Assembly: GCA_017430945.1 (NCBI GenBank)
Contig: JAFRMB010000089.1
Span: forward strand, 1 to 14,928
DNA length: 14,928 nucleotides
DNA from: Clostridia bacterium
GTDB lineage: Bacteria; Bacillota_A; Clostridia; Christensenellales; Aristaeellaceae
Direction: 5' to 3'
This document shows, in pieces, positions 2,749-14,928 of this stretch; the first letter of the stretch is position 1, and each line of letters opens with the position of its first letter. The translations under genes were made by a program, and so were the position numbers. The notes under the pieces were generated by a model, which was not told where the DNA came from, did not search any database, and worked only from the letters and a program-made list of their open reading frames with translations.

Positions 2749-5361
2749 CTATTTCGGCGTCTTGGCCGTGCGAACGGTGAGTTGCTCGCCGTCGGAGCTG
2801 ACAGTGACGTGGCTGTGCCGGTTCGAGGAGGTGATGTACACCTTGCTGCCGCGCCTTTTGAGCCAGCTCACATACCCGCCCTGCGGCATATGCCGTTTGT
2901 CTGTGGATATGACGGTGATCTTGGGATTACACAGCTTGGCGGCGTATTTCTGTTCACCGTTGTGGTGCGGGTTCTTGAAAACATCCGCCTTCAGCGCTGC
3001 TGCGCCCATTTTCTTCTTGATCGCGCTGAATTCGGGGGACATGGCATCGCCGGTGAGAAGGTAAGTGTTCTTTCCGTAGAATCCCTTTAAGATCAGTGAA
3101 TTATAGTTTTCGCTCGTGTCGTGCGAACTGGAGCGCCTGATCTTCCTGGGCCCGAGCATTTCAAAGAAGGCGCCGCCGATGCAAAAGCGCTCTCCGACCC
3201 GCAGGATGTGATACGGCGTTCTCTTCGCGGCGGATTTTTCATTTTTGCCATGTGCCCACGACCGGATCTTCTTGATGACCCTGCTGTGGGGCACGAGCAC
3301 CATGTCCGTAGGGATCTTCGCGAGGATGCAGCCGGCGCCGCCAACGTGATCCTTGTGCGCATGGGTGCCGATGTAGAACTTAAGATGGGTCACGCCCTGC
3401 TTTCGCATATACTTGACAGCCTTGGCACCGTAGCCGTGCGTGCCTGAATCGATGAACGCGTATTCGCCGCCACACCTGATCAGTATGCCGTCGTTGCGCC
3501 CGATGTTCATGAATGTGACATCGAGGTTGCCGTCCACCGTTGTCATGGGGTCGATGTGGGCATCCACGGTGACCAGACAGCTGGCATGCTTTCCGTTCAG
3601 CGTCCTCGCAGTAATGACGGCACTGCCGGTCCTGCAGCCGATGATCTCGCCCGTTTCGGGGTCTACCGAGGCGATGTCGGGACTCGAGCTTTCGAAACGG
3701 ACCTTCGATTCACCTTTATTGAGCTTGTATGTCAGCAGCGCAGATTCACCGGTCGCGATCTCGGCATAGCTCGTGCCCAGGCTGATGCTCGTGGGGGCCT
3801 TGGGGACGATGACGGTGATCCGGTCGGACAGGCCGCTGCAGGTCGTGGCGGTGATCACAGCCTTTCCGGGCTTCAGGGCGTTGATGCAGCCGTTCTTCAC
3901 CCGTGCGATCTTTGACGATGAAGAAGTCAGACCCACGACGCTGTAAGCGTCCGATGGCTCGATCATGGGCGCAGGCTGCCAGGTCTCACCTACGAACAGC
4001 TTGATCTCCGGAGCGTCGAAGGCGATACTGGAGGGCGAGGGCAGCACATGAACGGTACATACGCCCATCGCGCCGTCCGGCGTGATGCCGTACACAGTGG
4101 TATCGCCCTCCGAGACACCGGTAACGCGGCCTGTCTTTGGATCCACGACAGCGATGCTCTCATCGCTGCTTTCGTAGCCGATCGAAGCCATCGTGTCCGG
4201 GGGAAGCGTGGCGCGAAAATCCTGAGACACGCCGACCGCCAGCGGCAGCGCATCTGAGGAGGGGATGAGGTACGTCGGTGCGGGCAGGACCTTCACCTTC
4301 ACTTTGGCGCTCCGTTTGTAGGTGGTGACCTTTACGTAGGCCTCGCCCGGGCTGACGGCGCTGAGCCGCCCATCGTCGGTCAGACTCAGCACACCGTTGT
4401 CATCCACGCTGAACGTTCGTGTGAAGGCGGCGGTATTCTTGGGCAGTTTGACGGTGAGGGACGTGGTCTGGCCGACGCCCATCGTGGTCTGACCGACCGC
4501 CAACGTCACTTTTTTGGGTGCTTTTTTTACGGTAACCTTCAGCGTCAACGCGTGCGACGCATCGGCCCGCACGGTGATCGTGGCTTTCCCGGTCTTTTTG
4601 GCCACCAGTGTGCCGTTTGCCGACACGGCGGCGACCTTCTTTCTGCTGCTCTTATAGGTCAGTGTGCACTCGGCATTTGAGGGCTCCGGCGATATCGCCA
4701 GATCGACCTTTTCACCGACGCCCAGGGTCAGCGACGTGTAGGGCGCAGAGAGCCCCGACAGTTCGATCGGAGCGGCATCCGTTCCGTCGATCGGATCGTC
4801 CTCGCCGGAACCGTCACCGTTGCCGTCTGTGTCATCCGGATCGGGAGTGCCGTCGGACGCCGCCAAAGCGACGCCTGCGGCGATGTCGTTCGACGTGTCT
4901 GCGACCGCGACGTCCGCAACGTTTTCCGGATCGCTCCCGGGCTGCGGATCGTCGCTCCCGGTGAGTCCGTCCACGGGATCATCGGCATCTGCGACGTCCG
5001 CAACGCTTACCGGGTCGCTTCCGGACTGAGGATCGTCGCTCCCGGGAAGTCCGTCCTCAGGATCGTCGGCGTACGCGCTGTCCGATACGGTATCATCGGC
5101 GTCGGATGATCCGGCGACATCCGCCGGCTCGTCTTCCGGATCCTGGATCTCACTGCCGGATGCCGCGTCAGCGCCGTCTGACGCAGACGGTGTACCCGAT
5201 GCGAAGTCACAGAGTTCGAAGGATCCCATCACTTCCGGCGTGGTCTCCACCGGATCGGCGGACACCGGCAGGTCGTCTTCGACCGCCTCTGAAAGTGAGC
5301 TGACGCAGCTCATGAACAGTATCACGACCAACAACAGGCAGATCATGCGCCGAATACTCAT
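2749..5361 (-). CDS. Secreted multi-domain protein: acidic repeat linker, about five BIG_2-like Ig domains and a ComEC-type metallo-beta-lactamase domain
   Basis: This 870-residue protein begins with a signal peptide (MSIRRM, then a hydrophobic run to about residue 20). LSEA near residue 26 could be a signal peptidase I site. Cys19 is preceded by F-M-S, a poor lipobox. Residues about 28-195 form an Asp/Ser/Gly/Pro-rich linker with a 28-residue tandem repeat. Residues about 200-600 hold about five Ig-like units, with BIG_2 features such as SSxxxIAxVD, GxxTGVSEGDTTV and KPGKAVITA. Residues about 612-870 resemble the extracellular metallo-beta-lactamase domain of ComEC/Rec2: LDVTFMNIGRNDGILIRCGG, H667-A-H669-K-D671-H672, LLTGD (D772) and NPHHNGE (H799/H800). 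The metal ligands are present, so hydrolase activity, perhaps on nucleic acid, is plausible but the substrate is unknown. AGAGAGG lies 7 bases before the ATG. The metallo-beta-lactamase part looks less GC-rich than neighbouring genes. The domain calls are fairly sure; the function is not. Confidence 0.88.
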   Translation of the reverse strand: MSIRRMICLLLVVILFMSCVSSLSEAVEDDLPVSADPVETTPEVMGSFELCDFASGTPSASDGADAASGSEIQDPEDEPADVAGSSDADDTVSDSAYADDPEDGLPGSDDPQSGSDPVSVADVADADDPVDGLTGSDDPQPGSDPENVADVAVADTSNDIAAGVALAASDGTPDPDDTDGNGDGSGEDDPIDGTDAAPIELSGLSAPYTSLTLGVGEKVDLAISPEPSNAECTLTYKSSRKKVAAVSANGTLVAKKTGKATITVRADASHALTLKVTVKKAPKKVTLAVGQTTMGVGQTTSLTVKLPKNTAAFTRTFSVDDNGVLSLTDDGRLSAVSPGEAYVKVTTYKRSAKVKVKVLPAPTYLIPSSDALPLAVGVSQDFRATLPPDTMASIGYESSDESIAVVDPKTGRVTGVSEGDTTVYGITPDGAMGVCTVHVLPSPSSIAFDAPEIKLFVGETWQPAPMIEPSDAYSVVGLTSSSSKIARVKNGCINALKPGKAVITATTCSGLSDRITVIVPKAPTSISLGTSYAEIATGESALLTYKLNKGESKVRFESSSPDIASVDPETGEIIGCRTGSAVITARTLNGKHASCLVTVDAHIDPMTTVDGNLDVTFMNIGRNDGILIRCGGEYAFIDSGTHGYGAKAVKYMRKQGVTHLKFYIGTHAHKDHVGGAGCILAKIPTDMVLVPHSRVIKKIRSWAHGKNEKSAAKRTPYHILRVGERFCIGGAFFEMLGPRKIRRSSSHDTSENYNSLILKGFYGKNTYLLTGDAMSPEFSAIKKKMGAAALKADVFKNPHHNGEQKYAAKLCNPKITVISTDKRHMPQGGYVSWLKRRGSKVYITSSNRHSHVTVSSDGEQLTVRTAKTPK
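4903..5070 (-). repeat. 84-bp imperfect tandem duplication encoding a 28-residue acidic repeat
   Basis: Two adjacent 84-bp units (4987-5070 and 4903-4986) encode residues 98-125 and 126-153 of the secreted protein. Both follow the pattern ADDPxDGLxGSDDPQxGSDP and end in VADVA. DNA identity is high but not complete, so this is a real duplication that has begun to diverge. The unit length is a multiple of three, so copy-number change would keep the frame. Confidence 0.85.
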
Positions 5362-5543: not shown

Positions 5544-5576
5544 ATACACATATTTTTGAATAGCAAGGTGCATGGT

Positions 5577-6503
5577 ATGATCAGGGTATTCATTGACGGC
5601 AGCGCGGGGACCACAGGCCTGCGTATTCGTCAGAGGCTTGAGGCGCGCGGGGACATCGCGCTGATCACGCTGGACGAAGCCGTGCGAAAGGATATCGATG
5701 CGCGCCGCGAGGCGCTGAACGCGGCCGACATCGCCTTTCTGTGCCTGCCCGACGCGGCTGCGGAAGAGGCGGTCCAGTTGGTCCGGAACAGCCACACGGC
5801 GGTCATCGACACCTCGACCGCCCATCGGACGGCAGCCGGATGGACATACGGCATGCCCGAGCTTCCGGGCCGGCGCGAGGCGATCGCCGCGTCGAAGCGG
5901 ATCGCCAATCCCGGCTGCCACGCCAGCGGCTTCATCGCACTGATCGCGCCGCTGGTGGCTGCGGGGATCGTGGCGCGCGACGCGCGCTTGAGCTGTTTTT
6001 CACTGACGGGCTATTCCGGCGGCGGCAAGCGCATGATCGCCGAATACGAGTCGCCGGACCGGTCGGATCTGCTGGCGGCGCCGCGGCAATACGGCCTCTC
6101 CCAGCGCCACAAGCACCTGGCGGAGATGGCAAAGGTCTGCGGGCTGGAAGCGCCGCCCGGTTTTTCGCCCATCGTGGCGGACTTCTACAGCGGCATGGAG
6201 GTCAGCGTCCATCTGTTCGACGTGGATGTCGAGCGGGTGCGGGATGTGTACCGGGCGGCATACCCGGGGCCGGTGATCCGTTACGCGGAGGCAACGGACG
6301 AGGGCGGCTTCCTGTCGGCCGCGGCGCTCTCGGGGCGGGACGACATGGAGATCACCGTAGACGGCTTTGACGGCCGCGCGCTGCTGACGGCCCGGTTCGA
6401 CAATCTGGGCAAGGGCGCCTCGGGCGCGGCGATTCAGAATATGAACCTGGTGATGGGCGTCGATGAGACCACAGGCCTGTGCCTCAAGGGGGAGGAGAAA
6501 TGA
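5577..6503 (+). CDS. argC: N-acetyl-gamma-glutamyl-phosphate reductase, short-form type
   Basis: This 308-residue cytosolic enzyme reduces N-acetylglutamyl phosphate to the semialdehyde with NADPH, the third step of arginine synthesis. The dinucleotide-binding loop is DGSAGTTG near residues 7-14. The catalytic cysteine is C114 in IANPGCHASG. SLTGYSGGGKRMI and a PELPGRREA segment mark the shorter argC family (the TIGR01851-like form of about 310 residues) rather than the roughly 345-residue form usual in Bacillus. The start is ATG 5577, with AAGGTG 6 bases before it. The frame is open back to a TTG at 5556, but that codon has no ribosome binding site. It is the first gene of argCJBD and its stop overlaps the argJ start. 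Although it is fourth in usual naming order of the pathway set, argB, encoding the step before it, lies downstream. Confidence 0.95.
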   Translation: MIRVFIDGSAGTTGLRIRQRLEARGDIALITLDEAVRKDIDARREALNAADIAFLCLPDAAAEEAVQLVRNSHTAVIDTSTAHRTAAGWTYGMPELPGRREAIAASKRIANPGCHASGFIALIAPLVAAGIVARDARLSCFSLTGYSGGGKRMIAEYESPDRSDLLAAPRQYGLSQRHKHLAEMAKVCGLEAPPGFSPIVADFYSGMEVSVHLFDVDVERVRDVYRAAYPGPVIRYAEATDEGGFLSAAALSGRDDMEITVDGFDGRALLTARFDNLGKGASGAAIQNMNLVMGVDETTGLCLKGEEK

Positions 6504-7729
6504 TGGAACGCATCCAATGGATCCAGGGCGGCGTGTGTGCCGCACAGGGCTTCGTCGCCGGCGGCGTGCACTGCGGCATCCGGAAAAACCACGACAAGAA
6601 GGACCTGGCGATGATCGTCAGCTGCTGTGAAGCCAGCGCAGCGGCGGTGTACACCCGGAACCTGGTGAAGGGCGCGCCGCTGCTCGTGACGAAGCAGCAC
6701 CTTGAGAACGGCACTGCCCGGGCGGTCATCTGCAACAGCGGCAACGCGAACACCTGCAACGCGGACGGCATCGAGATCGCCGAGGCCATGAGTCGGCTGG
6801 TGTCCGAACACGTCGACGGCGTCGCGCCGGAGGACGTGATCGTCGCCTCAACCGGTGTCATCGGCCAGCCGCTGGACATCCGACCCATCGCACAGGGGAT
6901 CGGGCAGCTGGCGGCCGACCTGTCCGGGCAGGGCAGCCGGGCAGCGGCCGAGGCCATCATGACCACGGACACTGCCGTCAAGGAGGTCGCCGTCGAATTT
7001 GAGGCGGGCGGCAGGCTGTGCCGGCTGGGCGGCATCGCCAAGGGCAGCGGCATGATCCACCCCAACATGGCCACGATGCTCGTGTTTCTGACCACCGACT
7101 GTGCGATCAGCCCGGACATGCTCCGCAAGGCGCTGTCCGATGACGTGAAGGCCTCGTTCAACATGCTGTCCATCGATGGGGACACTTCCACCAACGACAT
7201 GGTGTCCATCATGGCCAACGGCATGGCGGGCAACCCTGTGATCGAAGCGCCGGGCGCGGACTATGACGCCTTTGCCGCCGCGCTGAATGCGATCACCGGT
7301 GCGCTGTGCCGCCGCATCGCCGCCGACGGAGAGGGCGCAACGAAGCTTCTGATCTGCCGGACGGGCGGCGCCGGGGACCTCGATACCGCCAGGACTGTGG
7401 CCAAGAGCGTCATATGCTCCAGCCTCCTGAAGGCGGCCATGTTCGGAGCGGACGCCAACTGGGGGCGCGTGCTGTGCGCCATCGGCTATTCCGGCGCGGA
7501 TGTGGACGTCGAGCGGATCGACGTGGCGTTTGCTTCGGCGAAGGGCGTCATCGAGGTCTGCAGGAGGGGCGCGGGCGTGCCGTTCTCCGAGGAGAAGGCC
7601 AAGGAGATCCTGCTGGAAAAGGAGATCGAGATCCGCGTGGACCTGAACGACGGCGATGCCGCCGCTACGGCCTGGGGCTGCGATCTCACCTATGATTACG
7701 TGAAGATCAACGGAGACTATCGGACCTGA
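6503..7729 (+). CDS. argJ: Glutamate N-acetyltransferase / ornithine acetyltransferase
   Basis: ArgJ moves the acetyl group from N-acetylornithine to glutamate, releasing ornithine and regenerating N-acetylglutamate (the cyclic arginine pathway). The precursor is 408 residues. KGSGMIHPNMATML contains the self-cleavage site between A190 and T191; the threonine becomes the N-terminal nucleophile of the beta chain. Other family stretches are ICNSGNANTC, STGVIGQPLD, NMLSIDGDTSTND and ADANWGRVL. The C-terminus is complete. GGAGG lies 7 bases before ATG 6503. The ATG at 6500 is an alternative with 4-base spacing and gives an ATGA overlap with argC. No argA is in the window, so whether this enzyme also accepts acetyl-CoA (the bifunctional form) cannot be told. 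Confidence 0.96.
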   Translation: MERIQWIQGGVCAAQGFVAGGVHCGIRKNHDKKDLAMIVSCCEASAAAVYTRNLVKGAPLLVTKQHLENGTARAVICNSGNANTCNADGIEIAEAMSRLVSEHVDGVAPEDVIVASTGVIGQPLDIRPIAQGIGQLAADLSGQGSRAAAEAIMTTDTAVKEVAVEFEAGGRLCRLGGIAKGSGMIHPNMATMLVFLTTDCAISPDMLRKALSDDVKASFNMLSIDGDTSTNDMVSIMANGMAGNPVIEAPGADYDAFAAALNAITGALCRRIAADGEGATKLLICRTGGAGDLDTARTVAKSVICSSLLKAAMFGADANWGRVLCAIGYSGADVDVERIDVAFASAKGVIEVCRRGAGVPFSEEKAKEILLEKEIEIRVDLNDGDAAATAWGCDLTYDYVKINGDYRT

Positions 7730-7740
7730 GGCGCGGTACG

Positions 7741-7765
7741 CGCGCCCGGCGAAGGACCGGGCGCG
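7741..7765 (+). other. GC-rich stem-loop between argJ and argB
   Basis: A perfect 9-bp stem (7741-7749 with 7757-7765) encloses a 7-base CGAAGGA loop in the 70-base argJ-argB gap. No T tract follows, so it is not a good terminator. It could be an RNA-processing or stability element that separates upstream and downstream expression within the operon. Confidence 0.5.
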
Positions 7766-7799
7766 GCCGGTGCCAGGGGCGCTGATGCGGAGGTCGTCT

Positions 7800-8687
7800 A
7801 TGGAGAAGCGTTTTTCCAACGCCGAGCGCGCAGAGGTGTTGACACTTGCGCTGCCGTACATCAAGCGGTACAACGGCAGGATCGTGGTCATCAAATACGG
7901 CGGGAACGCCATGGTCAACGACACGCTGAAGCAGCAGGTCATGGAGGACATCGTACTGCTTTGGCTCATCGGCGTGAAGGTGGTGCTGGTGCACGGCGGC
8001 GGGCCGGAGATCAGCGACACCATGCAGCGCCTGGGCAAGCAGGCCGTGTTCGTGGACGGGCTGCGGGTCACCGATCGGGAGACGGTGGACATCGTGCAGA
8101 TGGTGCTGGCGGGCAAGATCAACAAGACGCTGGTGAATCTGTTGGAGATGAAGGGCGGACGGGCCATGGGCATCTGTGGCATGGATGGCCGGCTCATAGA
8201 GGCGCGCGTGAAGGACGAACGCCTGGGCTATGTGGGCGAGATCACGAACGTCAACATTCAGCCGGTGCTCGATCTGCTGGAGAAGGGCTATATTCCGGTG
8301 ATCTCCACGCTGGGCTGCGACGATCAGGGCAACGCCTACAACATCAACGGCGACACCGCCGCCGCCTGCATCGCGGGCGCGCTGCGCGCCGAGCGCCTCA
8401 TCATGCTCTCGGACATCCCCGGCATCCTGCGGGACAGGAACGATCCCGCCACGCTGATCCCCGAGATGACCATCCTGGAGGCCGCGAGGCTGCGGGACGA
8501 GGGCGTCATCTCCGGCGGCATGATCCCCAAGGTGGACTGCTGTGTCGACGCCATACGCAAGGGCGTTCGGAAGGTCATCATCATGGACGGCCGCGTGCCG
8601 CACTCCATTCTCATGGAGCTCCTCACCGACGAGGGCGCGGGCACGATGGTGGAAGGAGGACATTACAATGAACATCCGGCAGATTGA
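7800..8687 (+). CDS. argB: Acetylglutamate kinase
   Basis: This 295-residue enzyme phosphorylates N-acetylglutamate with ATP, the second step and usual control point of arginine synthesis. Motifs of the amino-acid kinase fold are IKYGGNAM (residues 31-38), LVHGGGPEIS (residues 63-72), RVTDRETVD, an NINGDTAAACIAGAL segment and GGMIPKV. The N-terminal extension of about 25 residues before the first beta strand resembles the mobile helix of arginine-inhibited hexameric enzymes. Feedback inhibition by arginine would fit the ArgJ recycling pathway (inference). ATG 7800 is supported by GGAGG 6 bases upstream. The frame is open further upstream (ATG 7770), but that codon has a poorer context. The last 20 bases overlap argD. 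Confidence 0.96.
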   Translation: MEKRFSNAERAEVLTLALPYIKRYNGRIVVIKYGGNAMVNDTLKQQVMEDIVLLWLIGVKVVLVHGGGPEISDTMQRLGKQAVFVDGLRVTDRETVDIVQMVLAGKINKTLVNLLEMKGGRAMGICGMDGRLIEARVKDERLGYVGEITNVNIQPVLDLLEKGYIPVISTLGCDDQGNAYNINGDTAAACIAGALRAERLIMLSDIPGILRDRNDPATLIPEMTILEAARLRDEGVISGGMIPKVDCCVDAIRKGVRKVIIMDGRVPHSILMELLTDEGAGTMVEGGHYNEHPAD

Positions 8688-9837
8688 CGACACCTACATC
8701 GCGCACACCTATGCCCGCTTTCCGGTGGAGCTCCGGAAGGGCAAGGGCTCCCTGGTGTGGGACACGCAGGGCAGGGAATACATCGACCTGGGCAGCGGTA
8801 TCGCCGTCAACGGCTTCGGCATTGCGGACGACGCATGGCAGCAGGCCGTGATCGAACAGCTGGGCAGGCTGCCGCATGCGTCGAACCTCTACTACACCGA
8901 GCCCTGCGCAAAGCTCGCGCAGATGCTGTGTGCGCGCACGGGCATGAAGCGGGTGTTCTTCGGCAATTCCGGTGCGGAGGCCAACGAGTGCCTCATCAAA
9001 GTGGCCCGCAAATACGCCGCCGGGAAGCACGGGGCGGACTGCTACACCATCGTGACGCTGCGCAACAGCTTCCACGGCCGCACGCTGACCACGCTGTCCG
9101 CCACCGGGCAGGACCACTACCACGAGCTGTACCAGCCGCTCACACCCGGCTTTGCGCACATCGATCCCGGCGATATGGCCGGGCTCGAGGCGCTGAGCCG
9201 GACCACGAAGCTGGCCGCGGTGCTCATCGAATGCGTTCAGGGCGAGGGCGGCGTGGTGCCGCTCGAGGCGGGCTTCGTGCACGCGCTGGCGGACTTCTGC
9301 AGCGCGAATGACGTGCTGCTGGCGGTGGACGAGGTGCAGACCGGCAACGGCCGCTCCGGTCAGCTCTACGCCTACATGACCTACGGCATCCGGCCCGATG
9401 TCGTATCCACGGCCAAGGGCCTGGGCGGCGGCCTGCCCATCGGCGCCTGCCTGCTGGGCGAGAAGGTGCAGGACGTGTTCGCCCCCGGCGACCACGGCTC
9501 CACGTTCGGCGGGAATCCGGTCAGCTGCGCCGGCGGCGTCAGCATACTGAGCCGCATCGACGAGCAGCTGCTGGCGGGCGTGCGCGAGCGCAGTGCCCTG
9601 ATCTTCGCCGAGCTCACCGGTGCGCCGGGCGTCGAGTGTGTGAACGGGCTTGGCCTGATGATCGGCATCAAGCCCGTCAGGCCCGCCCGCGAGGTCGTGA
9701 TGCGCTGTATGGAAAACGGCGTGCTCTGCCTGACAGCCAAGGATCGCGTGCGGCTGCTGCCGGCGCTGAACATCCCTATGGATCAGTTAAAGAAGGCGGT
9801 GGGGGTGCTCAAGGCGGCCTGCGCGGAACAGGCGTGA
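8668..9837 (+). CDS. argD: Acetylornithine aminotransferase
   Basis: This 389-residue, PLP-dependent class III aminotransferase converts N-acetylglutamate semialdehyde to N-acetylornithine, using glutamate as amino donor. Visible signatures are GNSGAEANE (around residues 99-107), the FHGRT segment, D221 in VDEVQTGNGRSG, and the Schiff-base lysine K250 in STAKGLGGGLPIGA, followed by GDHGSTFGGNPVSCA. The start is ATG 8668, with AGGAGG 8 bases upstream; that site lies inside argB, and the coding regions overlap by 20 bases, so translation is probably coupled. It is the last gene of the operon and is followed by a strong terminator. argF, argG and argH are not in the window. Confidence 0.95.
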   Translation: MNIRQIDDTYIAHTYARFPVELRKGKGSLVWDTQGREYIDLGSGIAVNGFGIADDAWQQAVIEQLGRLPHASNLYYTEPCAKLAQMLCARTGMKRVFFGNSGAEANECLIKVARKYAAGKHGADCYTIVTLRNSFHGRTLTTLSATGQDHYHELYQPLTPGFAHIDPGDMAGLEALSRTTKLAAVLIECVQGEGGVVPLEAGFVHALADFCSANDVLLAVDEVQTGNGRSGQLYAYMTYGIRPDVVSTAKGLGGGLPIGACLLGEKVQDVFAPGDHGSTFGGNPVSCAGGVSILSRIDEQLLAGVRERSALIFAELTGAPGVECVNGLGLMIGIKPVRPAREVVMRCMENGVLCLTAKDRVRLLPALNIPMDQLKKAVGVLKAACAEQA

Positions 9838-13470: not shown

Positions 13471-13500
13471 TTGGACAAAGCACGCGAATGGTGCTAAAAT
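13471..13500 (+). promoter_or_regulatory. Predicted promoter of the metQ-like gene
   Basis: TTGGAC (13471-13476) and TAAAAT (13495-13500) are separated by 18 bases. TGC just before the -10 gives an extended -10 element. Transcription would start near 13507. Confidence 0.65.
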
Positions 13501-13531: not shown

Positions 13532-13555
13532 AATACGATCACAGGAGGACAAATC

Positions 13556-14404
13556 ATGAATATCCGCAAGCTCATCGCGGTCGTGCTGGCCGCACTGCTC
13601 ATCGTCTCCTCTGCCGCTGCGCTGGCCGAGATCACCATCGGCGTGCCGAACGACCCCACCAACGAGGCGCGCGCGCTGCAGCTGCTGGCCGACAACGGCA
13701 TCATCGAGCTTTCCGCTGACGCGAGCGAGCTGGCCACCAAGGCGGACGTCGTCACCGAGGGCATCACCATCGAGGAGGTCCAGGCGGACCTGCTGGTCAA
13801 CCAGCTGCCGGATCTGGATTACGCCGTCATCAACTCCAACTTCGTGCTGGACGCGCTGGACGCCGGCATCGAGATCAATGCCGCGCTGCTGACCGAGGCG
13901 GAGGACAAGTACCTGCCCCGCGCCAACATCATCGCCGTGCACGCTGACAACGTGGACGCCGACCTGACCAAGGCCCTGGTGGCCGCCGCCGCCAGCCAGC
14001 AGGTGGCCGACTACATCGCCGAGACCTACGCCGGCGCCGTGCTCTCCGTGGTGGAGAACCCCACCGACGGCTACGATGCTTCTGTGGACTATGACGCGCT
14101 GGCCGGCCAGAAGATCGTCATCGCCGCCAGCCCCGCGCCCCACGCCCAGATCCTGGAGATCGTGAAGGGCATCCTGGCCGAGAAGGGCATCGAGCTGGAC
14201 ATCGAGATCTTCACCGGCTACACCGAGGAGAACCCCGCCGTGGACGCGGGCGACGCCTACGCCAACTACTTCCAGCACCAGCCCTACCTGGATGAGGAAG
14301 TCGCGCAGAACGGCTACAAGGTCGAGAGCGTGGCCATCATCCACACCGAGCCCATGGGCCTCTACGGCGGCAAGCAGGCCGATCTGAGCGCGCTGGGCAA
14401 GTGA
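13556..14404 (+). CDS. metQ: MetQ/NlpA-family methionine-binding protein with swapped (circularly permuted) halves
   Basis: This 282-residue exported solute-binding protein probably delivers methionine to the MetNI importer. Residues 1-25 are a signal peptide ending ALA-E, a signal peptidase I-type site. There is no cysteine anywhere, so it has no lipobox. Residues 26-166 (IGVPNDPTNEARALQLL, LDYAVINSNFVLDAL, PRANIIAV, ETYAGAV) correspond to the C-terminal half of ordinary MetQ. Residues 167-183 are a linker. Residues 184-282 (KIVIAASPAPHAQILE, ANYFQHQPYLDEE, EPMGLYGGKQADLSALGK) correspond to the half that normally follows the signal peptide. Total length is normal for the family. AGGAGG lies 7 bases before ATG 13556. 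A metN gene follows 112 bases downstream. Family membership is clear. The permutation is a reading from remembered family sequences and needs an alignment. Confidence 0.88.
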   Translation: MNIRKLIAVVLAALLIVSSAAALAEITIGVPNDPTNEARALQLLADNGIIELSADASELATKADVVTEGITIEEVQADLLVNQLPDLDYAVINSNFVLDALDAGIEINAALLTEAEDKYLPRANIIAVHADNVDADLTKALVAAAASQQVADYIAETYAGAVLSVVENPTDGYDASVDYDALAGQKIVIAASPAPHAQILEIVKGILAEKGIELDIEIFTGYTEENPAVDAGDAYANYFQHQPYLDEEVAQNGYKVESVAIIHTEPMGLYGGKQADLSALGK

Positions 14405-14420
14405 TGCGGGACGGACCCCT

Positions 14421-14449
14421 TTGACAGGAGCCCTGTTTCCGGGTATAAT
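14421..14449 (+). promoter_or_regulatory. Consensus sigma-A promoter of metN
   Basis: Perfect TTGACA (14421-14426) and perfect TATAAT (14444-14449) hexamers are 17 bases apart, starting 16 bases after the metQ stop. The palindrome CCGTACGG (14454-14461) covers the predicted transcription start and could be an operator. Confidence 0.85.
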
Positions 14450-14467
14450 GGTACCGTACGGAACGAT

Positions 14468-14502
14468 GGGACACACCCTGACCCGGTGTGTCCCTTGATT
14501 TT
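14468..14502 (+). terminator. Intrinsic terminator in the metN leader, possible attenuator
   Basis: A perfect 10-bp stem (GGGACACACC 14468-14477 with GGTGTGTCCC 14485-14494) has a 7-base loop and is followed by TTGATTTT (14495-14502). It lies between the metN promoter and the metN GGAGG. It would end metQ transcripts and also transcripts from the metN promoter unless it is disrupted. Confidence 0.75.
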
Positions 14503-14516
14503 GGAGGCGAAAGCCC

Positions 14517-14928
14517 ATGATCGAACTGCGCAATCTGTCCAAGAGGTTCGTCACCGCGGACGGGCCGGTGGAGGCGCTGAACAACGTGAACCTCACCGTG
14601 AACGACGGCGACATCTACGGCATCATCGGCATGTCGGGCGCGGGCAAGAGCACGCTCGTGCGCTGCATCAACATGCTGGAGCGGCCCACCGAAGGCACCG
14701 TGTTGCTGGACGGCCGGGACCTGGGCGCGCTCGACAAGAAGGAGATGCAGCTGGTTCGGCGGGAGGTCACGATGATCTTTCAGTCGTTCAACCTGCTCAT
14801 GCAGTCCACGTGCCTGCAGAACATCATGTTCCCGCTGAAGCTGGCGCACGTGCCCAGAGCACAGGCCGAGGCGCGCGCCCGCGAGCTGCTGGGGACCGTG
14901 GGCCTGCCGGACAAGGCGGGCGCTTACC
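14517..14928 (+). CDS. metN: Methionine ABC transporter ATP-binding protein, 3' partial
   Basis: The first 137 residues of an ABC ATPase are present and the gene runs off the window end. MIELRNLSKRF is followed by GPVEALNNVNL, Walker A IGMSGAGKST (37-46), LVRCINMLERPTEGTV, and the Q-loop IFQSFNLLMQST with Q89. The CINxLERPTEG and FNLL stretches are typical of MetN, which powers methionine uptake with the permease MetI and the binding protein MetQ. The signature motif, Walker B and the C-terminal methionine-sensing domain lie beyond the window. GGAGG (14503-14507) lies 9 bases before ATG 14517. The adjacent MetQ-like gene supports the methionine assignment. A metI permease gene would be expected downstream. 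Confidence 0.9.
   Translation, partial: MIELRNLSKRFVTADGPVEALNNVNLTVNDGDIYGIIGMSGAGKSTLVRCINMLERPTEGTVLLDGRDLGALDKKEMQLVRREVTMIFQSFNLLMQSTCLQNIMFPLKLAHVPRAQAEARARELLGTVGLPDKAGAY

Follow-up and report, generated by a model that had tools for sequence, protein, structure and literature searches.

Near the 3′ end of a 14,928-nucleotide stretch of DNA from a Clostridia bacterium (assembly GCA_017430945.1, contig JAFRMB010000089.1, forward strand), hereafter the window, lies a gene for a binding protein of the MetQ/NlpA family, which we call metQ*. It is read from the window as a single open frame with its ATG at 13556, 282 codons and a stop at 14402-14404, and it is followed by metN, of which only the start is present; that metN and metI follow in this order is known from relatives. 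This open reading frame (ORF), 13556-14404, is a circularly permuted descendant of MetQ/NlpA, and neither a co-linear member of the family nor a fragment. An earlier note, made from the letters alone, had proposed as much, and its segments, coordinates and linker length (about 17 residues) proved correct, as did its clean frame with a signal peptide and ribosome binding site of its own and its placing of the cut between the SLDEL-like and PNDPTN-like segments (Table 1).

Table 1. Features of the metQ* locus in the window
Feature	Position	Strand	Basis
Permuted metQ (metQ*), 282 residues and stop	13556..14404	+	phmmer against PDB, Pfam, ORF
Ribosome binding site AGGAGG, 7 bases 5′ of the ATG	13543..13548	+	direct reading
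Signal peptide, residues 1-24, A-x-A type without cysteine	13556..13627	+	cleavage site by eye; AlphaFold2 helix 3-20
Old C-terminal part of MetQ, residues 26-166, with R39, N93, N124 (E. coli R144, N202, N229)	13631..14053	+	alignment
Linker, 17 residues (167-183), bridging the old C- and N-termini; motif PTDGYDxxVDYxALxG	14054..14104	+	alignment
Old N-terminal part of MetQ, residues 184-282, with Y222, F239, H241, Y244 (E. coli Y69, F86, H88, Y91)	14105..14401	+	alignment
Sigma-70-like promoter 5′ of metQ*, TGGACA-17-TAAAAT, 10/12	13472..13500	+	consensus scan only
Consensus promoter TTGACA-17-TATAAT between metQ* and metN, 12/12	14421..14449	+	consensus scan, which does not prove function
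Strong hairpin between metQ* and metN, with similar ones in close relatives	14468..14494	+	sequence comparison
metN, ABC (ATP-binding cassette) ATPase, truncated by the window end	14517..14928	+	family search; full-length NIL-domain homologue in a relative's locus (L001)

Matches in the PDB, the Pfam stretches and a rotation scan agree that the two halves of MetQ stand in swapped order, and none of the three gives a co-linear alignment with ordinary MetQ. A phmmer search of the PDB returned 28 sequences at E up to 1, 22 of them from the MetQ family and each of these matched in two stretches; the best stretch is swapped in all 22, and both stretches are shown for five, swapped in each. In PDB 4k3f, for example, query residues 185-279 correspond to chain residues 3-97 and query residues 26-163 to chain residues 102-237. 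A profile version of this search likewise gave 22 sequences in swapped order. In Pfam, PF03180 matched in two stretches, the better of which pairs residues 27-164 with profile positions 99-234 (175.8 bits against a cut-off of 27), and no other Pfam family matched the protein at E up to 0.1. Homology thus extends over the profile, with the N-part and C-part out of their co-linear order. When the mature protein was rotated and aligned globally with six ordinary MetQs (five clostridial ones and that of E. coli), scores rose from 29-116 in native order to 262-462 at the best rotation, which started at residue 165-187, within or bordering the linker; shuffled sequences averaged -16 to -3, and a control pair of ordinary MetQs preferred no rotation. 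Both parts are therefore homologous to one ordinary family, swapped, and joined at their old ends, as in a natural permutant. Since the half-models lie only 2 residues apart in 33 of 34 ordinary proteins, little or nothing was lost at the cut. The AlphaFold2 model is confident, with a predicted local distance difference test score (pLDDT) of 91.8. Structure comparison that keeps chain order, which cannot superpose a permutant, matched the protein over its full length with OpuAC, HisG and further structures, for the most part at 4-6 Å, and this shows the shared bilobed type only.

The arrangement belongs to a conserved clade, as a search for homologues with the same order, suggested in the earlier note, makes plain. 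Among the best 80 of at least 563 relatives from one scan of genome contigs (81 permuted sequences with the window's own), the C-part precedes the N-part in all 80, which are drawn from many assemblies, and the swapped order is found in the cultured isolates Faecalibacterium prausnitzii ATCC 27768 and F. gallinarum JCM 17207. In addition, tblastn against plasmid records placed a permuted metQ on an 861-kb replicon from Vescimonas fastidiosa MM35. The annotation of this replicon labels the gene simply MetQ/NlpA family, and genes for an ATPase and a methionine permease come after it. Of the best 10 of 371 records, eight match in two pieces, and the two that were read, each matching in a single piece, are permuted. 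The linker is as regular as the order: it spans 17 residues between the half-models in 77 of the 80 relatives, and a short form of its motif occurs in 80/80 permuted proteins, 0/34 ordinary MetQs and 0/4637 other ORFs of the loci. Among members found later, the motif is present in L187 and L224 and absent from L225. In conservation, residues 168-183 equal the ligand-binding halves, with a mean majority frequency of 0.80 against 0.67 and 0.72. A search with the rotated query still ranked permuted relatives first, and ordinary MetQs were drawn from genome searches instead. Of the 118 genomes in a class sample (centre included), 49 matched: the gene is permuted in 10 and full-length ordinary in 30, one has an ordinary gene cut by contig ends, and 8 gave weak partial matches only; no genome in this sample carries both forms. 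In the phylum sample, at least 172 of 249 genomes had a match, and the number of permuted genes is a lower bound because one more (in G173) emerged when nine genomes with weak best matches were searched again. Of the 16 genomes searched through the loci, 14 have the permuted gene as their sole PF03180 match.

The ligand site and the genetic neighbourhood both point to methionine import. In Neisseria meningitidis MetQ, methionine is reported to be contacted by R156, N213 and N238 of one lobe and Y81, F98, H100 and Y103 of the other (PMC6739813). All seven corresponding residues of the window protein are identical to those of E. coli MetQ (Table 1), and they are invariant in 81/81 permuted sequences. 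Moreover, metN and metI lie 3′ of the permuted gene in 71 of the 72 loci with more than 2 kb downstream; eight other loci are too short for this count, one showing both genes and one metN only. The MetN of L001, the sole locus examined for this, has a NIL domain. For six pairs, the ratio of nonsynonymous to synonymous change (dN/dS), a rough value here, is 0.26-0.61 over the whole protein, which suggests purifying selection on the permuted MetQ. Leaders are mixed: by pattern, 40 of the 80 relatives have a lipobox, 34 an A-x-A site and 6 neither, and by eye L006 and L025 seem mis-sorted and L067 and L073 seem lipidated. Lgt and LspA are encoded in all 16 genomes tested, though leaders are mixed. 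metQ* encodes a real and conserved circularly permuted MetQ, and one that probably works.

Regarding its origin, a tree of 30 permuted sequences (picked for diversity from the 81) and 34 ordinary ones, rooted at the midpoint only, unites the permuted sequences in a single clade (100/100) that lies within the ordinary clostridial MetQs, with L130 and L133 as the nearest ordinary rows (94/69). With all 115 rows, FastTree kept the 81 permuted sequences together in all three alignments, where node supports after re-rooting are unreliable. On these trees, the permuted protein is derived from within the ordinary family. Identity to the best-matching ordinary row is 45-62% in 22 members of the window's clade, and 48% for the window itself. 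The clade also differs in operon order: metQ* comes first (metQ*-metN-metI), unlike most ordinary loci, which read metN-metI-metQ in 51 of 60 cases (metQ first in 5, metI-metQ in 1, metQ alone in 3).

In mechanistic terms, the permutation would have broken the chain where it first passes from one lobe to the other, between the SLDEL-like and PNDPTN-like segments, with the new 17-residue linker bridging the former termini. Type II binding proteins have two chain crossovers between their lobes. Because the broken bond is one of these two, the permuted chain would cross the hinge once, each lobe being one continuous segment, and the protein should still adopt the usual Venus flytrap fold, close on methionine and deliver it to MetI. 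A likely route would begin with a tandem duplication of metQ, after which the end of the first copy was fused in frame to the start of the second and the outer halves disappeared, the signal peptide being retained. Tandem pairs of ordinary metQ, the starting state that such a route requires, are present in L132 (1393-3315) and L137 (1351-3108). L133 (1492-3231, minus strand; 579 residues), the clade's neighbour in the tree, was considered as an intermediate and rejected, being an SBP_bac_3 domain fused to an ordinary MetQ; this fusion gene adjoins an ABC ATPase gene. Twelve further proteins mix permuted and ordinary halves, six in the order C-N-C and six in the order N-C-N, as duplication intermediates would be expected to do (P0129-P0135, P0199, P0238, P0239, P0241 and P0244, from a search with a protein of the second permuted clade described below), but they were set aside as most likely assembly chimeras. 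Each occurs on one contig (P0132 on two), the N-terminus of P0199 is almost identical to that of E. coli MetQ, and by eye the start of P0135 looks proteobacterial and the joins seem to fall at motifs common to permuted and ordinary genes, although chimeric status is not proved for every one of the twelve. The chimeric-looking P0237 was excluded from the trees, and P0246 (N-C-C) and P0142 and P0236 (C-C-N by profiles) were not used.

A second permuted clade raises the question of how many times this happened. A Subdoligranulum variabile record (OY725879.1) encodes a permuted MetQ with a different linker, and its clade (P0136-P0236, a few odd proteins included) comes from sources such as Gemmiger sp. 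An120, Candidatus Fournierella and Ruthenibacterium. Here the linker has 13 residues in 93/101 members by pattern, the motif of the window's clade occurs in 0/101, and the gene order is metN-metI-metQ* in 6/6 loci (L188 and L219-L223), among them L188, with the permuted metQ at 4001-4747, and L220, on a 3.76-Mb contig. Matches were found in 53 of the 119 genomes of a family sample (centre included); five of these genomes have second-clade and three window-clade genes, and no ordinary copy was found in those eight. The ligand residues, located by motif and matched by eye, are invariant in this clade as well, and an AlphaFold2 model (pLDDT 85.9, predicted template modelling score 0.76, two of five models near 62) has a similar order of elements. 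Eighteen members share 71-76% identity with their best ordinary row, and the ordinary-order proteins P0240, P0242 and P0248 are sisters of this clade (100/100).

We consider it likely that Clostridia have seen at least two independent permutations of MetQ at the first crossover between the lobes, one in the window's clade and the other in that of Subdoligranulum and Gemmiger. The most serious competitor, which we regard as unlikely, is a single permutation from which both clades descend, the ordinary relatives near the second clade having reverted. The two permuted clades are separate in trees of 66 rows (20 permuted and 13 second-clade rows, four long-branch or weak ordinary rows dropped) and of 97 rows (six further ordinary rows dropped, 37 rows from new loci offered), and of 200 bootstrap trees 0% leave the ordinary group with a single change in either set, compared with 2% in an earlier tree with one second-clade row. 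Topology tests are mixed. The approximately unbiased (AU) test rejects both permuted groups as one clade with 66 rows (p = 0.0085), but not formally with the wider sampling of 97 rows (p = 0.058) or on the halves (p = 0.21 for the N-half and 0.054 for the C-half), and it does not reject a clade of both groups with P0240, P0242 and P0248 (p = 0.42, and 0.14 with wider sampling). Two independent permutations at the same cut are nevertheless favoured because the linkers (17 versus 13 residues, with the motif in 80/80 versus 0/101) and the operon orders differ between the clades, and because reversion would itself be a second permutation event.

One may also argue that metQ* is a fusion of halves from two diverged MetQ paralogues rather than a permutation of one gene, since any duplication route joins halves of two copies, and the N-half tree, built on 97 columns, has limited resolution. 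Yet both half-trees hold the clade together (98/95 for the N-half, 100/99 for the C-half) among ordinary clostridial MetQs, with no sign of two separate donors, although the sister groups of the halves were not formally compared, and we find such a fusion improbable. We give slightly less credit to the idea that the permuted protein now serves another ligand: function is read from residues and neighbours only, but the seven contact residues are invariant in the window's clade, the same motif residues recur by eye in the second, and MetN in L001 carries its NIL domain. Finally, a misassembly or pair of fragments, in which the end of one ordinary metQ was wrongly joined to the start of the next, is refuted by independent assemblies and has virtually no chance of being true even though the chimeric-looking database proteins show that joins at conserved motifs occur, because the order recurs in every relative, in cultured isolates and on the annotated replicon, and a conserved linker is not expected among half-cut genes.

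With these alternatives weighed, metQ* very probably codes for the protein that binds methionine for an ABC importer of the MetNI type, having arisen from an ordinary clostridial MetQ by circular permutation. Several observations count against this interpretation. No credible duplication intermediate was found among the database relatives, those of C-N-C or N-C-N order looking chimeric. An ordinary MetQ is also present in 2 of the 16 genomes searched (G006 and G011), and L057 has a permuted metQ (5845-6822) without adjoining metN or metI despite 6 kb downstream. The dN/dS values are rough owing to low synonymous change, and one N-half pair reaches 0.94. The single crossover is taken from the general topology of type II proteins, not from coordinates, and methionine binding, transport and fold are predicted from sequence and model. 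The window's leader has no cysteine and hence no lipobox, unlike N. meningitidis MetQ, in which lipidation is reported to be needed for interaction with MetNI (PMC8416018).

Around metQ*, the gap before metN holds a promoter-like site and a hairpin (Table 1). Of 24 close loci, 11 have such a hairpin, once each and shortly 3′ of metQ*, and in several of them a promoter-like site lies directly 5′ of it. The pair at 14421-14494 could be an attenuator or a small RNA. No riboswitch was found at metQ* with Rfam at gathering scores in the window and ten loci, the sole match being a downstream T-box in L044. Elsewhere in the window, judging by the translations, 2749-5361 (minus strand) presumably encodes a long secreted protein in which Ig-like segments are repeated and whose end resembles a metallo-beta-lactamase, and 5556-9837 (plus strand) holds what we take to be an arginine-biosynthesis cluster, argC-argJ-argB-argD.

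Compared with the ordinary MetQ/NlpA proteins (PF03180), such as E. coli MetQ, N. meningitidis MetQ and TpN32 of Treponema pallidum, metQ* shares the homologous halves, the seven ligand residues and the metN/metI partners, but it differs in its swapped halves, its new conserved linker, the missing lipobox of the window protein and, in the window's clade, its first place in the operon. The closest precedent is TpMglB-2 (Tp0684) of T. pallidum ('Type Ic / Cluster Bc'), described as a naturally permuted sugar binder of type I. Its permutation concerns the last ~70-100 residues, which have just 13% identity to their ordinary counterpart, and adds a fourth crossover; the protein keeps ligand binding and conformational change and has homologues in Gram-positive gut bacteria (PMC4990184). 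Both are permuted binding proteins of ABC importers; however, metQ* belongs to PF03180, is broken near the middle, has two clearly homologous halves and would lose a crossover. It does not fall within Type Ic / Cluster Bc, a type I group of MglB-related sequence, PF03180 being its only match in Pfam. OpuAC and ProX, as we name the relevant PDB entries of the CPSARST paper, are a second point of comparison. In that paper, these permuted glycine betaine binders were found by structure comparison and show less than 24% identity between any pair (PMC2395249), whereas permuted and ordinary MetQs share 45-62% in the window's clade and 71-76% in the second. Engineered permuted lobes of ribose-binding protein, linked to the idea of domain dislocation (PMC9815098), likewise use permutation to ask how bilobed binding proteins evolve, but they are single-lobe laboratory constructs, whereas whole natural proteins are at hand here. 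No report of a permuted MetQ was found in the literature searched, which covered the best-ranked results and left subscription journals mostly outside. Relative to known permuted binding proteins, metQ* differs in its family, the position of the break, the closer unpermuted relatives and the apparent recurrence; the second clade and the conserved linker set it apart most.

To our knowledge, it is uncommon for a natural circular permutant to have close unpermuted relatives. In this case a well-studied importer component occurs in both permuted and ordinary form, in part in cultured gut bacteria, and therefore two open questions become directly testable: how permutations arise and are tolerated, including the duplication route and the role of the conserved linker, and how far the covalent hinge of a Venus flytrap matters for affinity, closing and delivery to the transporter. 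Such re-wirings stay hidden when genes are annotated by profile domains, as the Vescimonas record illustrates. If the two origins are true, the permutation of MetQ would be a recurrent and selectively favoured switch from a two-crossover to a one-crossover hinge in a working importer.
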